Part shown: one piece after another, positions 7,175 through 24,716 of the stretch
How positions within the stretch are numbered: the stretch's first letter is position 1
Layout: each line of letters opens with the position of its first letter
NCBI RefSeq assembly: GCF_028826105.1
Contig: NZ_JAQGPL010000001.1
Coordinates: forward strand, 3,622,501 to 3,686,500
DNA from: Paenibacillus humicola
GTDB lineage: Bacteria > Bacillota > Bacilli > Paenibacillales > Paenibacillaceae
DNA length: 64,000 nt
Reading direction: 5' to 3'
The notes under the pieces: generated by a model
What the model was told of the DNA's origin: nothing
The model's input: the letters and a program-made list of their open reading frames with translations, nothing else
The model's database searches: none
Made by a program: the position numbers and the translations under genes

Positions 7175-10120
7175 TTAACGCTCCTCTCCCATCTTGACGG
7201 CCTGGTGCACGCGCAGCCGGCGAATATGAACGAGCAGCAGCCCGGCGCCCATCAGCATCATGACGCCAACGACGATGTAAAGCTGCGCCGTATCTTTCGA
7301 ATCGAAGACGACGCGGAACGGCGGCACCGAGTTGGCGACATTCTCGGTCGTCTGCAGAAACGGCAGGAACAGCAGGCTCGCGATTTTGCCGATGGCGATG
7401 CCGAGCGCGATCGACAGGCCGGCCGTGAATATTTGCTCCAGCAGCAGCATTCCGGTCAATTGCTTGCGCGACAGCCCCATCGCCCGCAGGACCCCGAACT
7501 GTACGATCCGCCCCGACAGGTTGAAAAACCAGTAAAGCACGTACCCGGTCAAGGATACGATGATCGAGACGAGGAAGCCGAGGCTCAAAATGCCGAATAC
7601 GCCTCCCCTCGTCGGCAGCTTCGACTGCCGGGCCAGCTCGATGCGCACATCCTGCACGTCGGCCAGCTCGATGCCCTTTGCCTGCAGCTCCTTGATCACC
7701 GTTCCGGTGAGCGCGCCCGGCTTCATCTTCAGCCAGACGTCGTACGGAATGATCGGCACCTGGTCATAAATGTAATCGAGATTGGCGATGACGAACGGCG
7801 ACTGGTCGGGGTACTGGCTCGGCCAATAAGGCACAATGCCGACGACGACGAAGTCGATGACATTGTCCTGAAGGCCGACGGACACGACGTCGCCGAGCTT
7901 CAGCTGGTACTTCTCCGCCACGCTCGACGGGATGATTGCCGCCTCCTCGTACATGCCGAGAAACTTCAAATAATAGAACGGATTGATCGGAAACAGGTCG
8001 TCCCTGAACCAGGCGACCTTGGCGAAATCGACATTGTCGATGCCCATCAGCGTGCCCTGTCCGATCGATTTGCCCGATACGATGATATTGCCCGGCGTCT
8101 GCAGGACGCGTGCCGCCGCCTGCACGCCGTCCAGTGTGCGAAACACCTCGAACGGCGGCTCGTTGTACGTGATGCGCGTCGGAACGTCAGGGGCGCCGCC
8201 GGGTCCGCCGGGTCCCTCGGCGCCGGGCGCGCCGCCTTCGCCGCTGCCGTTCCCGCCGCTTTGGCCGCCCTCGCCTTGTTGGCCGCCGCCGTTTGGACCT
8301 CCGCCGCTGCCGCCGTTGTCTCCTCCGGCATTTCGGCCCTGATCGACCGGATCGGCCTGACCTTCCCACACCGTCTTGACCGTGACATCGGTGCCGAATT
8401 TGTATAAGGTCCGTTCCGTCGAATTCAGATCGATCGTGCGCGCAGCCGACGCGTTATAGACGCCGAGACCGAGCGTCAGGATCAGCAGGATCATCAGCGG
8501 GTAATACCCTTTGGACGAACGCGACAGCTGGGTGAGCGTCAGGTACGCCGGCACCGGCAGCAGACGCTTGCCGAGCCAGCCGAACAGTCTCAGCAGCCAC
8601 GGGAATATGCGCAGGAAGAACAGTCCCATCGCGAATATGGCGATCGCCGGCACGAAAAACAGGAACGGCTGCACGTTCAGCTGGTCCGTCGTCAAGCCGC
8701 TCTGAAACGAGACCAGCTGCCGCTCGTTGAACAAATACCAGCCGTAAGCGGCCACGCCGAGCAGCAGCACGTCGAGAAACCATCGCTGCCAGCCGGGACT
8801 GCGGTCCGAGCGGGCAAGCTGCTGCTTGTAGTTGACGATCGACGCCCGCGCATAGATGACGGCGGGGATGACGGTCGCCAGCACGGCCAGCAGCACGGCC
8901 GCAATGCCTGCGATAACCGCTTCGTTCGAGAACCCGACGGGAATGGATTTGCGGTCGACGAACTCGAGAAAGCCGTTCGCCGAACCGATGCTTTTCGCCA
9001 TAAACCAGCCGATGAGCGGACCGAGAATAAGCGCCGCAAGACCAAGCATCAGCCCCTCCAGAAAATACATCCATATGATTTGCCTGGTGCCCGCGCCGCG
9101 GCTCCGAAGCACGGCGATGTCGGCGCGCTGCTTGTCGAGCGACTGACGCGCATTCATCGCGATGAAATAAAACACCATCGCCAGCATCGGCGCCGCCAGC
9201 GTGAACAGCAGCAGCTGCAGCTGCAGGCTCTGCGTCCGGAACTCGCCGAGCAGCTTGGCGAACGAAATTTCCACCCTCGTGTTTTTAAGCTGCTGGTACA
9301 GGTCCACGTTCAGCCGCTCCAGCGTCCGGTTCAGCGGCGACAGCTGGCTCGTTTTGATATTCGACAGATCGAAGGCGTAGTACCAGTTCGCGGTATGAAG
9401 CGGTATGTTCAGATTCTTCAGCAGCCCGGTCTGAAGCGCATTGTCGCCGACGACCAGCGTATTCATCATCCCTTCGAGCCCCTGATACCAGAACGGGTCG
9501 GTATCGGCGGTCGGCTTGAAGGAGCCGACGATTTTGACGCGTACCGTAATGTTGAGTCCGCTGTAAATCGGGTATTCGAAGACGTCGCCGATGTGCACGT
9601 CGTTCCGGTACATCGCTTCGTCGAGCATCACCGCCTCGATGGTGTTGCCGCTGCCGACCGAATCGGCGAACCAGCGCCCCTGCGTCAGCTCCGCCTTCTT
9701 GTCGATGCCGGACATCGTGGAAATCGTCATCTGCCGGACAAGGCTGGGATCGACCTTGGACGGGTCCTCCGGCACGATCTCCGCGCTTGCGATCGACAGG
9801 GTCTGGACAAACGACGCATGCGGAAATCCGATTTCCTCCGGCACTTTCTCGCGGATGTAGCTCATTACGTTCGAGAGCGCGGTCAAATCCGTCTTGTCGC
9901 CGCCCGACGCCTGGTAGTGCATCAGCAGCGAGCCGGCGGGCAGGCCATCGCTCTGTTCCTTCAGCGACTGCTCCACGACGCCTTTCAGCGCGCCGTCCGC
10001 GTACATCGGAATGCTGGTGGCGAACGCCACGGCCATGATGAGACCGGCCAGCGAGCTGAGCGTCATCCACCTGGTGTTCCACATTTTCCGGAACAGAAAG
10101 CGAAATAACGGCATCCCCAT
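7175..10120 (-). CDS. Large FtsX/MacB-type ABC permease
   Basis: A 981-residue membrane protein with two FtsX-like halves. An N-terminal membrane segment (about 20-40) precedes a large extracytoplasmic domain (about 43-295), then three membrane segments (about 295-430), further hydrophobic segments at about 450-570, a second extracytoplasmic domain, and a final three-helix FtsX module near the C-terminus (about 855-975). The second extracytoplasmic region starts with a roughly 60-residue Gly-rich low-complexity insert (about 586-645). Double FtsX permeases act with LolD-type ATPases in lipoprotein export, peptide efflux or cell-envelope work. The gene follows the adaptor by three bases and precedes the AbrB-tailed ATPase by six. 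Confidence 0.92.
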   Translation of the reverse strand: MGMPLFRFLFRKMWNTRWMTLSSLAGLIMAVAFATSIPMYADGALKGVVEQSLKEQSDGLPAGSLLMHYQASGGDKTDLTALSNVMSYIREKVPEEIGFPHASFVQTLSIASAEIVPEDPSKVDPSLVRQMTISTMSGIDKKAELTQGRWFADSVGSGNTIEAVMLDEAMYRNDVHIGDVFEYPIYSGLNITVRVKIVGSFKPTADTDPFWYQGLEGMMNTLVVGDNALQTGLLKNLNIPLHTANWYYAFDLSNIKTSQLSPLNRTLERLNVDLYQQLKNTRVEISFAKLLGEFRTQSLQLQLLLFTLAAPMLAMVFYFIAMNARQSLDKQRADIAVLRSRGAGTRQIIWMYFLEGLMLGLAALILGPLIGWFMAKSIGSANGFLEFVDRKSIPVGFSNEAVIAGIAAVLLAVLATVIPAVIYARASIVNYKQQLARSDRSPGWQRWFLDVLLLGVAAYGWYLFNERQLVSFQSGLTTDQLNVQPFLFFVPAIAIFAMGLFFLRIFPWLLRLFGWLGKRLLPVPAYLTLTQLSRSSKGYYPLMILLILTLGLGVYNASAARTIDLNSTERTLYKFGTDVTVKTVWEGQADPVDQGRNAGGDNGGSGGGPNGGGQQGEGGQSGGNGSGEGGAPGAEGPGGPGGAPDVPTRITYNEPPFEVFRTLDGVQAAARVLQTPGNIIVSGKSIGQGTLMGIDNVDFAKVAWFRDDLFPINPFYYLKFLGMYEEAAIIPSSVAEKYQLKLGDVVSVGLQDNVIDFVVVGIVPYWPSQYPDQSPFVIANLDYIYDQVPIIPYDVWLKMKPGALTGTVIKELQAKGIELADVQDVRIELARQSKLPTRGGVFGILSLGFLVSIIVSLTGYVLYWFFNLSGRIVQFGVLRAMGLSRKQLTGMLLLEQIFTAGLSIALGIAIGKIASLLFLPFLQTTENVANSVPPFRVVFDSKDTAQLYIVVGVMMLMGAGLLLVHIRRLRVHQAVKMGEER

Positions 10121-10123
10121 CGG

Positions 10124-11197
10124 TTATCGCCCTACGACTTTCTGTCCCGGCGTCAGCCCTTTGACGATTTCCACTTCGGTCGCCGTTTGCTGGCCGACCT
10201 CGACGTCGACCTCGCGCTTCGTGCCGTCCTTCTCGGCCACCTGCACGTATGTACGCGCACCCATTGTCCGGAGGGCGGAAGGCGGTATGACGATCGCATT
10301 TTCCTTGCGCTGCGTAATGATGGATATCGACAGCGGCGTGCCCCTCGTCATGCCGGGCGGTTTCTTGTCCAGCTGTACGATCAGGTAATCCTCGGGCCGG
10401 TCCGGACGCTGCTGACCGCCGTTGCCGGTTCCGTTCCCGTTCTGGTCGTCGTCCTGGAAGACCGGCAGCTGCTTCACCTTGCCCGTCACCTGCCCGATAT
10501 TGTTGATATCGACGACGGCGGGCATGCCGACAGCAACGCCCTGCAGGTCGTCCGGAGTCATTTTCGCCGCGGCCGTCAGCTGCGACGTATCGGCAATGAT
10601 GCAGATTGGATCGTACGCCTTGACCTGATCGCCCTTCTGCACGCTGACGGACACGACAGTGCCGGCGAACGGCGCTTTCAGCGTCGCTTTGTCCAGCTCT
10701 TCCTGCTGGTCGGCCAGCGCCTGCCGCTTCTCCTCGAAGGCGATCTGCTTCTGCTGAAACTCGACCGGATTCATCGTATCGCGATTGCGCAGCGTCTGCT
10801 TCATATCGAGCTCATCCTGCTGAAATTGAATTTTGGCGTCGCGCAGCGCTTTCTCCTCGTCGTCCATATCGAGCGAGGCAATAACCTGGCCGGCCGTTAC
10901 CTTTTGCCCGGTTTTTACGTCTAATTGTTTGATGCGCTTTTCGTCGATCGTAAAATACATCGTCTCTTCCTGCATCGAAATGATATTTCCGGCGGCCGTC
11001 ACCTTCGTCTCCAGCGTCGTCGTCGTCACATCGTATTCCGGTTTTTTCGAAATTTGCGGGGGCGTGATTTCCGGGAGGGTCTCCTCGCTCTGCTCCTTCG
11101 GGAGCAGCGAGCAGCCGCTTGCGAAGACGAGCGATGCGCCCAGCAAAACGGCGGATGAACGCTTAAATGAACTTCCCGTCAACCATTTCATAAACAT
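10124..11197 (-). CDS. MacA-like adaptor lipoprotein (membrane fusion protein)
   Basis: A 357-residue adaptor. The signal peptide ends FASGC (Cys at about 29), making it a lipoprotein. Then come a biotinyl-lipoyl-like half (KTGQKVTAGQVIASLD), a long helical hairpin with Gln/Glu/Lys-rich coiled coil (about 110-170), the second half (APFAGTVVSVSVQKGDQV) and beta-barrel and membrane-proximal domains to the C-terminus. In a Gram-positive such adaptors work with FtsX-type permeases as an external sleeve. ATG at 11197 is chosen because GGAGG lies nine bases upstream; a TTG at 11206 abuts that site. It overlaps the end of the upstream ATPase gene by 35 bases. Confidence 0.9.
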   Translation of the reverse strand: MFMKWLTGSSFKRSSAVLLGASLVFASGCSLLPKEQSEETLPEITPPQISKKPEYDVTTTTLETKVTAAGNIISMQEETMYFTIDEKRIKQLDVKTGQKVTAGQVIASLDMDDEEKALRDAKIQFQQDELDMKQTLRNRDTMNPVEFQQKQIAFEEKRQALADQQEELDKATLKAPFAGTVVSVSVQKGDQVKAYDPICIIADTSQLTAAAKMTPDDLQGVAVGMPAVVDINNIGQVTGKVKQLPVFQDDDQNGNGTGNGGQQRPDRPEDYLIVQLDKKPPGMTRGTPLSISIITQRKENAIVIPPSALRTMGARTYVQVAEKDGTKREVDVEVGQQTATEVEIVKGLTPGQKVVGR

Positions 11198-11957
11198 GAT
11201 CGGCAACCTCCAAAATCGTGGGATCGTGCGTCGTCATACAAATCGTAACCTGTTCCGTGCGAATGATATTTTGAAAGACCGCCATGATTTGCGCCGCCAT
11301 CTGCGAATCCAGCTCCGCGGTCGGTTCGTCCGCCAGGAGCAGTCTCGGACGGTGTGCGATCGCTTTGGCGATGGCAACCCGCTGCTGCTCGCCGCCGGAA
11401 AGCTCGAACGGCCGGTGATGCATCCGTTTGCCCAGTCCGACCATGTCAAGACAGTGTGAAACGCGTTCCTTCCATTCGCCGCCGGGCGTACCCGCCATGC
11501 GCAGCGACAGCTCGACGTTCTCGTAAGCCGACAGCAGCGGCATCAGCGCGTAGGCCTGAAAAATAAAGCCCATCTCCTTGCGTCTGACCAGCGTGCGCTC
11601 ATCGTCGTTCATCGAATGAAACGGCATGCCGCGAAAAAAAATTTCGCCTTTTGTCGGCTGATCCAGTCCGCCGATCATATTCAGCAGCGTCGTTTTGCCG
11701 GACCCCGATCTGCCGCGCAGCATGACGAGCTTTCTCGGCATCAGCTCCAGCTGGATGCCTTTCAGCACGTGCAGCGGCTGTCCGCCGACCTGGAACGTGC
11801 GCCCCACGTCCCGCACGGCCAAGATCGGCTCCCCCGGTTCTTCCTCCGGGTATGTTTGCGCAAGCTTCGCCGCTTCTGCCGGCTGAGCTGCCTCTTGTCC
11901 GCTCCCTGCCTCCTTTACGGCTAAAGTTTGGGACGTCGTTCGTTTCCACCATGTCAT
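11163..11957 (-). CDS. LolD/MacB-type ABC ATPase, first gene of the MacAB-like operon
   Basis: A 264-residue ATPase with Walker [10 protein letters not shown] (82-90), Q-loop (about 134), signature ELSGGEQQR (185-193), Walker B LLLADEP (206-212) and switch His (244). An unusual 45-residue N-terminal extension rich in Ala, Glu and Gln precedes the ABC domain. Start at 11957 (MTWW) is likely; an upstream in-frame start at 12026 is not excluded, and no ideal ribosome site is visible. It is the operon's second ATPase and ends within the adaptor gene, so two different ATPases may serve one permease as a heterodimer. Confidence 0.9.
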
Positions 11958-12070
11958 GAGCTGCTTTCGCGCCCCCCTTTTATGAGAGAATATGGATCCA
12001 ATTACCGTATAGACGGTGCAAGTCACGAAAAAGTTACGCCGAACGCTGTTTAAAATCCTAAATATTTGTT

Positions 12071-12126
12071 AAAAAGGCTCTCGTTTCCCGGAAGATCGAC
12101 ACGATCCTTTCCGGAAACCGGGAGCC
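12071..12126 (-). terminator. Intrinsic terminator of the ABC-2 exporter operon
   Basis: Long minus-strand hairpin between GGCTCCCGG (5' arm, 12118-12126) and CGAGAGCC (3' arm, 12076-12083), extended by GGAA/TTCC pairing, followed by five T (12071-12075). It lies about 45 bases after the stop of the last permease gene. Confidence 0.85.
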
Positions 12127-12169
12127 TGCGGACTTTCTTATTGAATGGTAAACGAACGATCAAAGAAGG

Positions 12170-12991
12170 TTATCCCCGCATCGCAATCGCGTTGCCGGAA
12201 GTATAACGCTTGAGGCCGAGCCTGAACAGCAGCACGCCGGCGATGCCGAAGCCCAGCGTGACGCCGGCGGCTCCGCAGACGAACGGCGGCGAAAAGTCGC
12301 GCAGCAGCCCGATCGGCAAATAGCTGATAAAGCCTGCCGGCACGACGGAGAACAGCACCGCCCGCGCCAGGCCGCGGAAAATATCCGACGGGTAAGTCGT
12401 CAGCGCCAGGAAGCCGTTAAACACCTGCTGCGAGAGCCCTTCGGCATTGCCGATAAAAAAAGCGCAGCACCCGGCCAGAATCATGACGGCCATAAAAAGC
12501 AGCCCGGCGAGCAGCAGCCCCGCCGCGAAAAGCGCCGCGCCACGGAGCGAATGGTCGCCGGCCCAGGCGTAAACGGCCAAGCCGAAAATGAAGTCGCCGA
12601 GCGCCGTAATCGACATGCGGCTGGCCAGCACATGCAGCAGCACCGGCTTCGGCTGCGACAAATAGACGTCTAGTCGGCCTCCGGCGACGATTTCGGCGAT
12701 CCGGTTGAAATTGCCGAACAGGACGTTTGCCCAGCCGAAGCCACCCGCCCCGACCGCCCACAGCATCATGACGTCGTTTAACTGCCAGCCGTTCACGACC
12801 GGAAAGCGGCCGAAAAACAAGCTCCAGAAAAGCAGCCACAGCAGGTTGTTGACGATCATCATGCCGGCCAGCAGCACGAAGCTGAGCCGGTACTCCATCG
12901 CCGCCGCCAGATTGACTTTCCAGCAGGCCAGCAGAAACCGCAGCACGGCGAAGCTCCGGCCGGCCGCCGTCCGGTTATCCGCCATTGACAT
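12170..12991 (-). CDS. ABC-2 type permease (second permease of exporter)
   Basis: A 273-residue integral membrane protein with about six hydrophobic segments. The motif region LDVYLSQPKPVLLHVLASR, after a Gly-rich stretch, is typical of ABC2_membrane_6 (DUF990-like) permeases, which occur as pairs encoded beside one ATPase. The start at 12991 follows GGAGAGGAGTGAAG and overlaps the preceding permease by 17 bases; MADNRT at 12985 is an alternative. It should form the membrane channel with the neighbouring permease. The substrate is unknown, though the riboswitch upstream links its expression to a small-molecule signal. Confidence 0.9.
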   Translation of the reverse strand: MSMADNRTAAGRSFAVLRFLLACWKVNLAAAMEYRLSFVLLAGMMIVNNLLWLLFWSLFFGRFPVVNGWQLNDVMMLWAVGAGGFGWANVLFGNFNRIAEIVAGGRLDVYLSQPKPVLLHVLASRMSITALGDFIFGLAVYAWAGDHSLRGAALFAAGLLLAGLLFMAVMILAGCCAFFIGNAEGLSQQVFNGFLALTTYPSDIFRGLARAVLFSVVPAGFISYLPIGLLRDFSPPFVCGAAGVTLGFGIAGVLLFRLGLKRYTSGNAIAMRG

Positions 12992-13817
12992 GAAGCTTCT
13001 TCACTCCTCTCCTGTAGATGAACGACACAACGGCGGCAATGGCGGCGATCCACAGCAGCTGAACCACCAGCTGTTCGGGCAGAGCCGCACGGCTTACGTC
13101 GACAGCCGACCGAGCGGGCAAATAGAGCACCGCCTGGAAGGGCAGCCAGGCGCACAAATGCTGCAGCCAACCCGGCATCATATCGAGCGGCAGCAGCATG
13201 CCGCCGACGGTGAACTTCAGCTTCTGCAGCACGAAATCGAGACCGCGGGTCTCCTCGATCCAGAAGGCGCATAGCGCAACCGCCGCGCTGAGCAGAAAAG
13301 CGAGCGTCATCGCGCCGAAGCTGAGCGCGAGCAGTGCCGCCCAGCCGTACCCGAACGACGGCGTTCCGGCCAGCGGCCACGCGACGGCGGCGCCGACCGC
13401 CAGATGAATGAAGAATCGGAAATAGGCCTCCGCCATATAGCACGCGTAATGATAGCCGATATACGAGAGCGGCCGGATAAGCCGGATGGCGATGTCGCCG
13501 TTTTTCACTTCATCCTCGATCAGCGTGCCGACCGGCGGTCCGGCCATCGTGATCGCTTCGGTAAAAACGAGGTACCAGACGATCTGCTTCAGCGTGTAGC
13601 CCGCGATGCGCAGCTGGCCGTCGCCGCCGTACGCCGCGCTCCACAGCTGCACGAAGACGAACAGGATGAGCAGCAGGAAAGAGGCGCGCACGATGAAATC
13701 GGTCCGGTAAGCCAGCTGATGCCTCAGTGTAATGCGCGCGACGGCGCCGATTTTCCGGCCGGCCGCCCCCGCCCTGGCCGCTGCGGCTTCCGCCGCCGCG
13801 GCATATCTTCCGTTCAT
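12975..13817 (-). CDS. ABC-2 type permease (first permease of exporter)
   Basis: A 280-residue membrane protein with about six hydrophobic segments after an Ala-rich cytoplasmic N-terminus. EDEVKNGDIAIRLIRPLSYIG is the ABC2_membrane_6 signature near the middle, and EETRGLDFVLQKLKF is a family-typical loop. ATG at 13817 overlaps the ATPase stop in an ATGA arrangement, so the gene is translationally coupled to it. With the neighbouring paralogue it makes a heterodimeric export channel driven by the ATPase at 13814-14842. Confidence 0.9.
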   Translation of the reverse strand: MNGRYAAAAEAAAARAGAAGRKIGAVARITLRHQLAYRTDFIVRASFLLLILFVFVQLWSAAYGGDGQLRIAGYTLKQIVWYLVFTEAITMAGPPVGTLIEDEVKNGDIAIRLIRPLSYIGYHYACYMAEAYFRFFIHLAVGAAVAWPLAGTPSFGYGWAALLALSFGAMTLAFLLSAAVALCAFWIEETRGLDFVLQKLKFTVGGMLLPLDMMPGWLQHLCAWLPFQAVLYLPARSAVDVSRAALPEQLVVQLLWIAAIAAVVSFIYRRGVKKLHVNGG

Positions 13818-14842
13818 GGCGCTCCCGCCTTTCCAGCCGCCGGTCCTTTTCCCCCGGCCTGCATGCCGTAAATATGCTTGATGATTTCTTCAAGCGGCGG
13901 ATCCTCCACGGTCACATCCTCGAACCGGACGGTGCCGATCAGTTCGGCGAGCACGCGCTCGATCGTCGTCTGCGTCAAATCGACGGTCAGCTTCAGCCTG
14001 CGTCCCTCCGCCGCCATCATTTCCGTTCCGGCAACGGCAGCCGGCAACGTCCGCCCGTTTGAATCGGCCATCGTCATCGTGACCGTCTTGCGGTTCAGCG
14101 CGTCCCGCTTCAGCCTGTCGACCGGCGAATCGAGCAGCAGGCCGCCATGATGAATGACGACGGCGCGCGAGCACAGCTCCTCGACGTCGCCCGCATCGTG
14201 CGAGGTCAGAAAAACGGTCGTTCCCTCCTCGCGGTTCAGCTCGCGAATGAGCTCGCGGATGCGCTGCTTCACCACGACGTCCAGCCCGATCGTCGGCTCG
14301 TCGAGAAAGATCAGCTCCGGGCGGTGCAGGAACGAAGCGGCGATCTCGCACCGCATCCGTTCGCCGAGCGACAGCCTCCGCACCGGCGTCCGCATATGCG
14401 GGCCGAGCTCGAACCGGTCGATCAATTCGTCGCGGCGCCGGCGGTAATCGCTCCTCTTCAGCTCATAGACGCGGCTGATCAGATCGAACGTGTCCGCAGG
14501 CGGCAGATGGTACCACAGCTGCGACTTCTGCCCGAAAACCGCGCCGATCCGGTATGCGAGCCGGGCGCGCTCCGACCAAGGCGTCAGGCCGAGCACGCTC
14601 GCCGAGCCGGAGGTCGGGTGCAGGATGCCGGTAAGCATTTTGATCGTCGTCGATTTACCCGCTCCGTTCGGCCCGAGAAAGGCGACCGTCTCGCCGCGGC
14701 GGACGGACAAATCGATCTGCCGCACCGCCATCTTTTCCTCCCATTCCGGCTTGATCAAGGAGCGGAAGCTTCCCCGCAGCCCCGCGTCCTTTCGTTTCAC
14801 TTTAAACGTTTTGCTAAGTCCGTCCGTTTGCAAAGCCCACAC
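13814..14842 (-). CDS. ABC-2 exporter ATP-binding protein
   Basis: A 342-residue DrrA/NatA-like ATPase. Walker A GPNGAGKST is at 57-65, the Q-loop region is FGQKSQLWYHLP, the signature is LSLGERMR near 158-165, Walker B is LIFLDEPTIGLD, and the switch His lies in FLTSHDAGD. The region after about 240 is the regulatory C-terminal domain of ABC-2 ATPases. FGQKSQLWYHLP and RRLSLGERMRCEIA are typical of ATPases paired with ABC2_membrane_6 permeases. Start is GTG at 14842 with GAGGTGA upstream. It is the first gene behind a ykkC-class riboswitch and terminator. Confidence 0.93.
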   Translation of the reverse strand: MWALQTDGLSKTFKVKRKDAGLRGSFRSLIKPEWEEKMAVRQIDLSVRRGETVAFLGPNGAGKSTTIKMLTGILHPTSGSASVLGLTPWSERARLAYRIGAVFGQKSQLWYHLPPADTFDLISRVYELKRSDYRRRRDELIDRFELGPHMRTPVRRLSLGERMRCEIAASFLHRPELIFLDEPTIGLDVVVKQRIRELIRELNREEGTTVFLTSHDAGDVEELCSRAVVIHHGGLLLDSPVDRLKRDALNRKTVTMTMADSNGRTLPAAVAGTEMMAAEGRRLKLTVDLTQTTIERVLAELIGTVRFEDVTVEDPPLEEIIKHIYGMQAGGKGPAAGKAGAP

Positions 14843-14889
14843 CGCGCCGTCACCTCATCTCTCGTCTTGCCGCTTCGTCCCGCTAAAGC

Positions 14890-14941
14890 AAAAAAGACCC
14901 CGGCGAAGACCGCCCAGAAGGCGGAACTTGCCGAAGGTCTT
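14890..14941 (-). terminator. Leader terminator (expression platform) before the ABC-2 exporter
   Basis: Minus-strand stem AAGACCTTCGGC (14930-14941) with GCCGGGGTCTT (14894-14904), enclosing an inner CCGCC/GGCGG hairpin, followed by six T (14890-14895). It lies about 50 bases before the exporter ATPase start and shares its 5' arm with the P3 stem of the aptamer, so the two structures cannot form together. Confidence 0.88.
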
Positions 14942-15024
14942 TTATCCCTACGGTGTAGCAAAGACGTATTGTCTGCAGCCGGTTTCGCTCGGTTCGCCAC
15001 AGGGTGCGCGGATCCCTAGAAACC
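14931..15024 (-). promoter_or_regulatory. ykkC-class riboswitch aptamer (subtype undecided)
   Basis: Minus-strand RNA with the ykkC layout. P1 pairs GGTTTC (15019-15024) with GAAACC (14981-14986) and encloses CTAGGG-TCCG at its 5' side and ACCGAGCG at its 3' side. A small hairpin P2 (14958-14976) follows. Then comes the highly conserved ACACCGTAGGGATAAAAG, closed by P3, CCGTAGG (14947-14953) with CCTTCGG (14931-14937). Known ykkC variants sense guanidine, ppGpp, PRPP or nucleoside diphosphates. The ACACCG before AGGGATA looks, from memory, nearer subtype 2 than guanidine-I (ACACGG), but the subtype cannot be settled by eye. Because P3 uses the terminator's 5' arm, ligand binding should switch the exporter on. 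Confidence 0.82.
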
Positions 15025-15041
15025 CTTCCGTTTGATGTAAC

Positions 15042-15070
15042 ATATTACCACCCGCCGGCCGCTTTGGCAA
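15042..15070 (-). promoter_or_regulatory. Sigma-A promoter of the riboswitch-exporter operon
   Basis: TTGCCA (15065-15070) and TAATAT (15042-15047) with a 17-base spacer on the minus strand. The predicted transcript start is about ten bases before the aptamer's P1 stem. Confidence 0.8.
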
Positions 15071-16925: not shown

Positions 16926-17127
16926 AGTTTTTGCGAAACATCCTGAAACACTCCTTGCGAGCAAAAACTCGCTTCGGAAGCATAGGCTTCGTTTTTGCGC
17001 TGCACCCTGAAATACACATCTTGTAAGTAAAAACTCGCTTCGGAAGCATAGGCTTTGTTTTTGCGAAACATCCTGAAACACTCCTTGCGAGCAAAAACTC
17101 GCTTCGGAAGCATAGGCTTCGTTTTTT
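16926..17127. repeat. Tandem array of three ~64-bp repeats between carB and pyrF
   Basis: Three head-to-tail units of 64-66 bases. Each ends with CTCGCTTCGGAAGCATAGGC and begins TTTTTGCG; units 1 and 3 are nearly identical (CATCCTGAAACACTCCTTGC), and unit 2 is diverged in its first half. CTTCGGAAG is a small palindrome. Related CTTCGGAAGC/GCTTCCGAAGC sequences recur at about 21620 and 61845, which suggests a dispersed intergenic element. Short open frames across it are products of the repeat, not genes. Confidence 0.85.
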
Positions 17128-23910: not shown

Positions 23911-24648
<738 letters not shown>

Positions 24649-24664
24649 TCAATTATTCACGCTA

Positions 24665-24688
24665 CCTTGCCAGCCTCTCTGGACTGAA
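24665..24688 (-). promoter_or_regulatory. PyrR-binding anti-antiterminator loop
   Basis: The minus strand reads TTCAGTCCAGAGAGGCT followed by GGCAAGG, the near-invariant PyrR-binding hairpin loop of Bacillota pyr leaders. It lies 25-30 bases after the predicted transcript start and upstream of the attenuator terminator. This is the only copy I found in the operon, against three in Bacillus subtilis. Confidence 0.93.
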
Positions 24689-24716
24689 CTTAAAGGTACA
24701 TTCGTTCATCAAAAGA

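Follow-up and report, generated by a model that had tools for sequence, protein, structure and literature searches.

A leader RNA of the ppGpp-riboswitch type most likely switches on an ABC-2 transporter operon in Paenibacillus humicola

The 64,000-nucleotide stretch of Paenibacillus humicola DNA analysed here (the window) carries, on its minus strand at positions 15070-14843, a leader RNA that is most likely a genuine switch of the type that senses guanosine tetraphosphate (ppGpp) and that activates an export pump encoded by three genes in this soil bacterium of the Paenibacillus/Cohnella group. Along the leader, an extended -10 promoter, an aptamer with the ykkC fold and an intrinsic terminator follow one another (Table 1), and behind them lie the genes for an ATPase and two permeases of an ATP-binding cassette (ABC) transporter of the ABC-2 type. 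From sequence comparison we regard it as highly probable that the leader is a ppGpp-type (ykkC subtype 2a) riboswitch acting as an antitermination ON switch of this natA-type operon. Such comparison establishes the fold, the subtype markers, a mutually exclusive terminator and co-inheritance with the operon. Earlier publications already describe this combination of sensor and pump, and the window leader is an ordinary, well-supported further example of it.

A ykkC-fold leader with a fourth helix

The aptamer signature read in the initial annotation of this DNA (CTAGGG-TCCG, ACCGAG and ACACCGTAGGGATAAAAG) is present at the place and on the strand proposed, and so is the promoter. A TG precedes the -10 element, one such promoter was found against 0.3 expected in shuffles, and a comparable arrangement is seen in leaders of the window's taxonomic family. 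The ykkC fold is recognised by helices P1, P2 and P3 together with the conserved CUAGGG, ACCGAG and AUAAAAG elements, all of which the leader contains. A count of three helices, as first annotated, is correct for P1-P3 but too low, since it misses P0, the helix that marks ykkC subtype 2; in the consensus structure and the aptamer fold, P0 closes a four-way junction of P0, P1, P2 and P3. Likewise, the proposed P3 strands (CCGTAGG and CCTTCGG) are both there, but their pairing holds a U-U mismatch. Taken alone, the aptamer folds into P0-P3 at minimum free energy (MFE).

Complete leaders occur at 29 of the 30 orthologous loci fetched from the family; at the 30th, the leader runs off the end of the fetched sequence. 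From 26 of these 29 (L021, L023 and L034 were left out) we obtained an alignment, A1, whose consensus fold comprises P0, P1, P1a and P3, and built a covariance model, R1. In this genome R1 finds a single strong match, at 119.2 bits; the next two, at 21.4 and 17.4 bits, are guanidine-I RNAs. Across 93 distinct sequences, 97.2% of the consensus-structure pairs are standard, and two-sided changes number 314, compared with 89.8 ± 14.6 in shuffles (0 of 500 as high) and at most 53 in slid versions, figures to be read with the caveat that the alignment was fitted to the same structure and that related sequences inflate shuffle tests. P0 itself (5 pairs) is paired in 96.7% of the alignment cells, with two-sided changes at every pair.

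Two further covariance models contain no natA leaders of the window's family. For R2 we used 18 of the 25 loci with a downstream protein in the aminotransferase or acetolactate-synthase clusters; the training set of R3 was 18 loci of purine context, namely 16 of the 22 loci with G at position 96 (see below) and two tandem RNAs of the family. Trained on the RNAs of other families alone, R2 scores the window at 89.6 bits (E about 1e-19), 13 bits ahead of R3 (76.6 bits). This score, the two-sided changes and the 29 of 30 family loci all support the assignment of the leader to the ykkC class, as originally annotated.

Terminator and predicted switching

The intrinsic terminator that had been proposed in series before the ATPase and the two ABC-2 permeases is present. 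The 3' strand of P3 lies within its 5' arm, which extends into the 3' strand of P0, and in the MFE fold of the whole leader the terminator is formed and P3 and P0 are lost. All 30 family leaders have a terminator-like hairpin (mean -33.9 kcal/mol, z -5.7 to -9.9 against mononucleotide shuffles), which in all 30 absorbs most of the P3 3' strand (4/6 to 7/7 bases paired). The base after CGG meets the terminator 3' arm as C-G in 18 of these leaders, as A-U in 11 and as an unpaired A in 1; judged from this base, the terminator arm tracks the aptamer sequence.

Because terminator formation uses up the 3' strands of both P3 and P0, ligand binding should switch the operon ON, in agreement with the logic that the initial annotation drew from the strand shared by P3 and the terminator. 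ON logic has been published for this class (PMC6031431). We infer a transcription start just 5' of P0 and, for P. humicola, the following response. Without ligand, the nascent RNA would form the long terminator and halt at the U-tract. Amino-acid starvation would raise ppGpp or its pentaphosphate form, pppGpp (together, (p)ppGpp), whose binding would hold P0 and P3 together, block the terminator and allow the pump genes to be transcribed.

The leader travels with the operon

Of 118 family genomes, 31 have an R1 score of at least 56 bits, and this set is identical to the 31 genomes that encode a close orthologue of the permease (E <= 1.7e-54); four further family genomes reach 32-34 bits only. 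A survey of the leader-exporter pairing in relatives, suggested when the leader was first annotated, thus gives 31 of 31 for the family genomes with a close orthologue. It gives 78 of 80 for the named loci, which are the best 80 of 121 encoding a relative and come from Paenibacillus, Cohnella and Thermobacillus: the leader scores at least 58 bits in 77 of them and 32.2 bits in L179. At L170 (Paenibacillus rigui) and L176 (P. psychroresistens) an orthologue of the operon is present, and neither pattern nor model detects any remnant of the leader.

In wider surveys, R1 matched 98 of 299 genomes of the class and 192 of 398 of the phylum. We hand-picked 80 loci (L036-L115) from the matches listed in these surveys, mostly top-scoring and not a random sample. 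At ten of these (L036, L037, L039, L040, L042, L044, L049, L065, L069 and L081), all outside the family, a homologous ATPase with 51-63% identity lies behind the RNA and is accompanied in every case by one or more recognised permeases.

A second, weaker R1 match is found in 2 of the 31 family genomes, one a tandem RNA (L125, G073) and the other a decayed partial leader (L124, G023). The latter (L124:489-697) is a copy of the natA leader that has lost its 5' half; it lies some 8 kb from the intact leader and precedes an open reading frame (ORF) that by inspection resembles an FGGY kinase. In L125, L126 and L128, all from the window's family, a guanine aptamer is immediately followed by a ykkC-fold RNA with C at position 49 and the G typical of aptamers for phosphoribosyl pyrophosphate (PRPP), an arrangement of the known tandem guanine-PRPP type. 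At G000:C1:1098237-1098620, two guanidine-I riboswitches lie on opposite strands, 156 bases apart, and point away from each other.

Subtype and ligand

The ligand was initially left open among guanidine, ppGpp, PRPP and nucleoside diphosphates (NDPs). The subtype markers, P0, the model scores and the gene contexts point to (p)ppGpp, that is, to subtype 2a. According to PMC6031431, guanidine-I RNAs have A at position 49, where subtypes 2a and 2b have a pyrimidine; P0 belongs to the PRPP and ppGpp aptamers and not to the guanidine aptamer; and the chief difference between the PRPP and ppGpp aptamers is a single base, G96 being more than 97% conserved in the former and position 96 not being G in the latter. 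The same source reports that, in the G96A crystal structure, the guanine of ppGpp is paired with C75, and that G104 contacts the ligand in the crystal structure. The window has C at position 49, as do all 11 family rows (window included); the base there is C or T in 79 of 80 subtype 2 rows outside the family (57/58 non-G96, 22/22 G96) and A in all three guanidine-I RNAs of this genome. In the window tail, CCUUCGGCAAG, position 96 has no G; the alignment is gapped there, and the base is read as U or as absent. The pocket bases A5, G6, G48, C77 and G105, as well as C75, are all present, and position 104 is A.

A guanidine-I riboswitch driving a guanidine exporter would have CTAGGG, P1-P3 and an AUAAAAG-type loop in common with the leader, and Guanidine-I (subtype 1, RF00442) gives its best Rfam alignment. 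However, the score is 23.2 bits against a gathering threshold of 63, whereas the three guanidine-I RNAs of this genome reach 82.7 to 96.3 bits, and the leader departs from Guanidine-I at the marker (C for A at position 49, which is position 46 in Reiss numbering), in having ACACCG for ACACGG and in the presence of P0, which makes this reading extremely improbable.

The PRPP riboswitch (subtype 2b), which would report ribose-phosphate supply with the same ON logic, shares with the leader the overall fold, P0 and most pocket bases, and the published one-base difference between the two aptamers brings it close. The R3 score is still substantial, and pyrF-pyrE lies upstream of the leader not only in the window but also in 5 of 10 fetched relatives (about 2 kb away in L117), PRPP being used by pyrE. 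Yet the window has no G96, R2 is ahead of R3, and the PRPP-type RNAs of the family (L125, L126 and L128) both adjoin a guanine aptamer and have the G; an Rfam scan of the window found no purine aptamer, and the operon is not of the purine type. We therefore regard PRPP as a very unlikely ligand.

The model comparison extends beyond the window. Among 60 scored loci, R2 exceeds R3 in 28 of 29 family natA leaders (the exception is L031), in 10 of 10 other natA leaders, in 7 of 7 held-out ilv-type RNAs and in 7 of 8 RNAs in other contexts (the exception is L111); it falls below R3 in 3 of 3 held-out G96/tandem RNAs and 3 of 3 guanidine-I RNAs. Gene contexts were read from the first downstream ORF of at least 150 amino acids, chosen mechanically and present at 79 of the 80 hand-picked loci. 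Behind the non-G96 RNAs (57 of 58 with such an ORF), and among the matches listed, which cover 25 of 44 matched families, are class IV aminotransferases (18), ABC ATPases (10), glutamate synthases (5), proteins of the acetolactate-synthase type (5) and periplasmic binding proteins (4). Behind the 22 G96 RNAs are 5-aminoimidazole ribonucleotide (AIR) carboxylase (7), Pribosyltran (3), xanthine/uracil permease (3), the adenylosuccinate-lyase type (2), an AIR-synthase relative (1) and, once each, glutamate synthase, an aminotransferase, an acetolactate-type protein and a binding-protein-dependent permease.

Subtype 2a riboswitches, according to PMC5912903, include those of natA transporters and of branched-chain amino-acid and glutamate-synthase genes, and the window operon, with an ABC ATPase and two ABC-2 permeases, fits this list of contexts. 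A reporter described in PMC12373219 was built on a Clostridiales natA aptamer, which that paper, citing earlier work, gives as preferring pppGpp about tenfold. Judged by gene type, the natA of these two papers is probably the same operon type as that of the window. The leader resembles the natA-associated ppGpp riboswitch (PMC5912903, PMC12373219) in its P0 fold, pyrimidine 49, lack of G96, terminator over P3 and P0, ON logic and natA-type operon, and is unlike it in having A104, a short CCUUCGG P3 3' strand and a Paenibacillus-group host. Subtypes 2c and 2d, whose contexts are given in a review of ykkC subtypes (PMC7266159) as NUDIX/HAD hydrolases or EamA/TauE transporters, were set aside by gene context only, as no NUDIX/HAD or EamA/TauE gene lies downstream.

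This genome has two matches to RelA/SpoT domains. As the starvation alarmone, ppGpp reports nutrient stress and not a compound to be pumped, and for this reason the expectation that the ligand would point to the substrate of the exporter does not follow. If the (p)ppGpp reading is correct, an ABC-2 pump would be under likely direct alarmone control in Paenibacillus and its relatives, and the pump becomes a candidate part of the stringent response that is open to testing. In this genome the leader is the sole subtype 2 ykkC RNA that R1 finds, so that here the alarmone switch seems to act on the pump only and not on amino-acid synthesis. A literature search found no paper joining "ppGpp riboswitch" and "Paenibacillus"; the primary PNAS 2018 paper lay outside that search, and hence we make no claim of priority.

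Evidence weighed against the assignment

Several observations weigh against a ppGpp riboswitch: (i) Single-sequence folding is not significant relative to shuffles (z -1.79 for the whole leader, +0.29 for the aptamer). (ii) A simple scan for terminators gave no more than chance would (1 found, 1.0 expected), and the U-tract of L027 is interrupted. (iii) Position 104 is A in the window, compared with G in 33 of 58 non-G96 and 18 of 22 G96 rows. (iv) For the family leader L031 the purine-context model R3 gives a better score than R2, and this leader has U in place of G at position 48. (v) The position-96 classification is imperfect: classes were set by pattern and eye, 7 of the 58 non-G96 RNAs were unparsed and placed by eye (L036, L044, L057, L058, L063, L070 and L078), and at 4 of the 22 "G96" RNAs (L076, L089, L106 and L111) the downstream proteins cluster with the non-G96 group. 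(vi) An Rfam scan of the window at gathering thresholds gave no ykkC match, and a scan by E-value gave, besides the Guanidine-I alignment, five weaker unrelated families. Under the Guanidine-I model the leader is even outscored by L004 of the same genome (27.3 bits), a match at the start of a sialidase-like ORF that we dropped as chance.

The initial annotation had named the lack of a covariance match above threshold as an outcome that would refute a ykkC riboswitch, and with Rfam that is literally the outcome; with R2, the leader scores 89.6 bits. The Rfam threshold is not decisive here because, of the other subtype 2 RNAs fetched, some go unmatched at E up to 0.1 (L036, L042 and L124) and others match Guanidine-I (L054, L125, L126 and L128); the Rfam Guanidine-I threshold overlooks RNAs like the window leader. 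A plain attenuator, or a chance resemblance with no riboswitch at all, would account for the unremarkable folding and the low Rfam score, but not for two-sided changes far above both the shuffled and the slid controls, a near-perfect co-occurrence with one operon and the E-value from an independent model; we give it next to no weight.

The A at position 104 bears on a different alternative, a subtype 2 aptamer with shifted specificity that would be selective for pppGpp or would bind an NDP or an undescribed nucleotide. A104 occurs in 77 of 78 named leaders (the exception is L189), the published natA aptamer favours pppGpp about tenfold (PMC12373219), and a pocket-adjacent P3 base pair is flipped in three species. 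On the other hand, A104 is also frequent among other RNAs (25 of 58 non-G96 rows), and the other tallied pocket bases of the window are the usual ones, with L031 (U at 48) the only deviation among family rows. Such a shift seems unlikely. The flipped pair, which adjoins the ligand pocket, is found in L175, L178 and L179 (around 1225-1530), where the leader precedes an orthologous operon, has 34-42 extra bases in P3 with the loop AUAGAAG and keeps its terminator; L179 has an additional insert in P1. These P3-insert leaders may be a specificity variant, or may reflect decay. A pattern search for the insert in the window's own family returned 0 of 394 genomes. On the strength of A104, the shortened P3 3' strand, and the extra P3 hairpin and flipped pair in three species, one could suppose that the Paenibacillus-group natA leaders form a specificity subgroup tuned to pppGpp or another nucleotide, with the pump answering a separate branch of the stringent response from the amino-acid genes; we find this doubtful.

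Operon and neighbouring genes

The system was compared with ABC-2 (type V) transporters that have NatA/DrrA-type ATPases and ABC2_membrane_6 permeases, and from its family and fold it is probably an exporter. Unlike these references, the ATPase falls under its NCBIfam cut-off (best match TIGR01188 drrA, 216.6 bits against 312.45) and neither permease matched an NCBIfam model; permease 1 has no relative in the PDB by sequence at E up to 1. No paper was found in the literature linking any two of COG4586, COG4587 and COG3694.

Table 1 Features of the leader and operon in the window.
Feature	Position	Strand	Details
Promoter	15042..15070	-	-35 TTGCCA 15070-15065, 17-base spacer, extended -10 TAATAT 15047-15042; 9/12 matches
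ykkC subtype 2 aptamer, probable ppGpp type (2a)	14920..15031	-	R1 match; R2 89.6 bits; R3 76.6 bits
P0 5' strand	15026..15030	-	CGGAA; two-sided changes at 5/5 pairs
P1 5' strand	15019..15024	-	GGUUUC, then conserved CUAGGG region
Subtype marker, position 49 (T. mathranii aptamer numbering, PMC6031431)	14987	-	C; A in guanidine-I
P1 3' strand	14981..14986	-	GAAACC
P2 hairpin	14957..14980	-	From MFE fold; outside alignment consensus, lengths vary
C75 equivalent	14955	-	C in 94/94 aligned rows
P3	14931..14953	-	CCG-U-AGG, loop GAUAAAAGA, CCU-U-CGG; position-96 equivalent without G
P0 3' strand	14922..14926	-	UUCCG; also inside terminator region
Intrinsic terminator	14890..14943	-	U-tract 14895-14890; -29.6 kcal/mol, z -6.4 against mononucleotide shuffles
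ABC ATPase, natA/DrrA-like	13814..14842	-	GTG start; PF00005 91 bits
ABC-2 permease 1 (ABC2_membrane_6)	12975..13817	-	
ABC-2 permease 2 (ABC2_membrane_6)	12170..12991	-	PF06182 90.6 bits, cut-off 22

After the operon, at 7175-12026 on the minus strand, come genes for a LolD-like ATPase, an HlyD-like adaptor and an FtsX-type permease. Read-through into them is possible because no terminator-like site was found in 11900-12300; in relatives these genes do not always adjoin the operon. On the upstream side, a link between the leader and the pyrimidine genes was considered and rejected, since the other 5 of the 10 fetched relatives, two of them outside the family, have no pyrF-pyrE near the leader and operon. 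At 16927-17126, between reading frames named by inspection as pyrF and carB, lie 3.1 copies of a 64-base repeat with 82% matches. A PyrR binding site, presumably the leader of the pyrimidine genes, is found at 24517-24700 on the minus strand (58.7 bits, Rfam cut-off 54).
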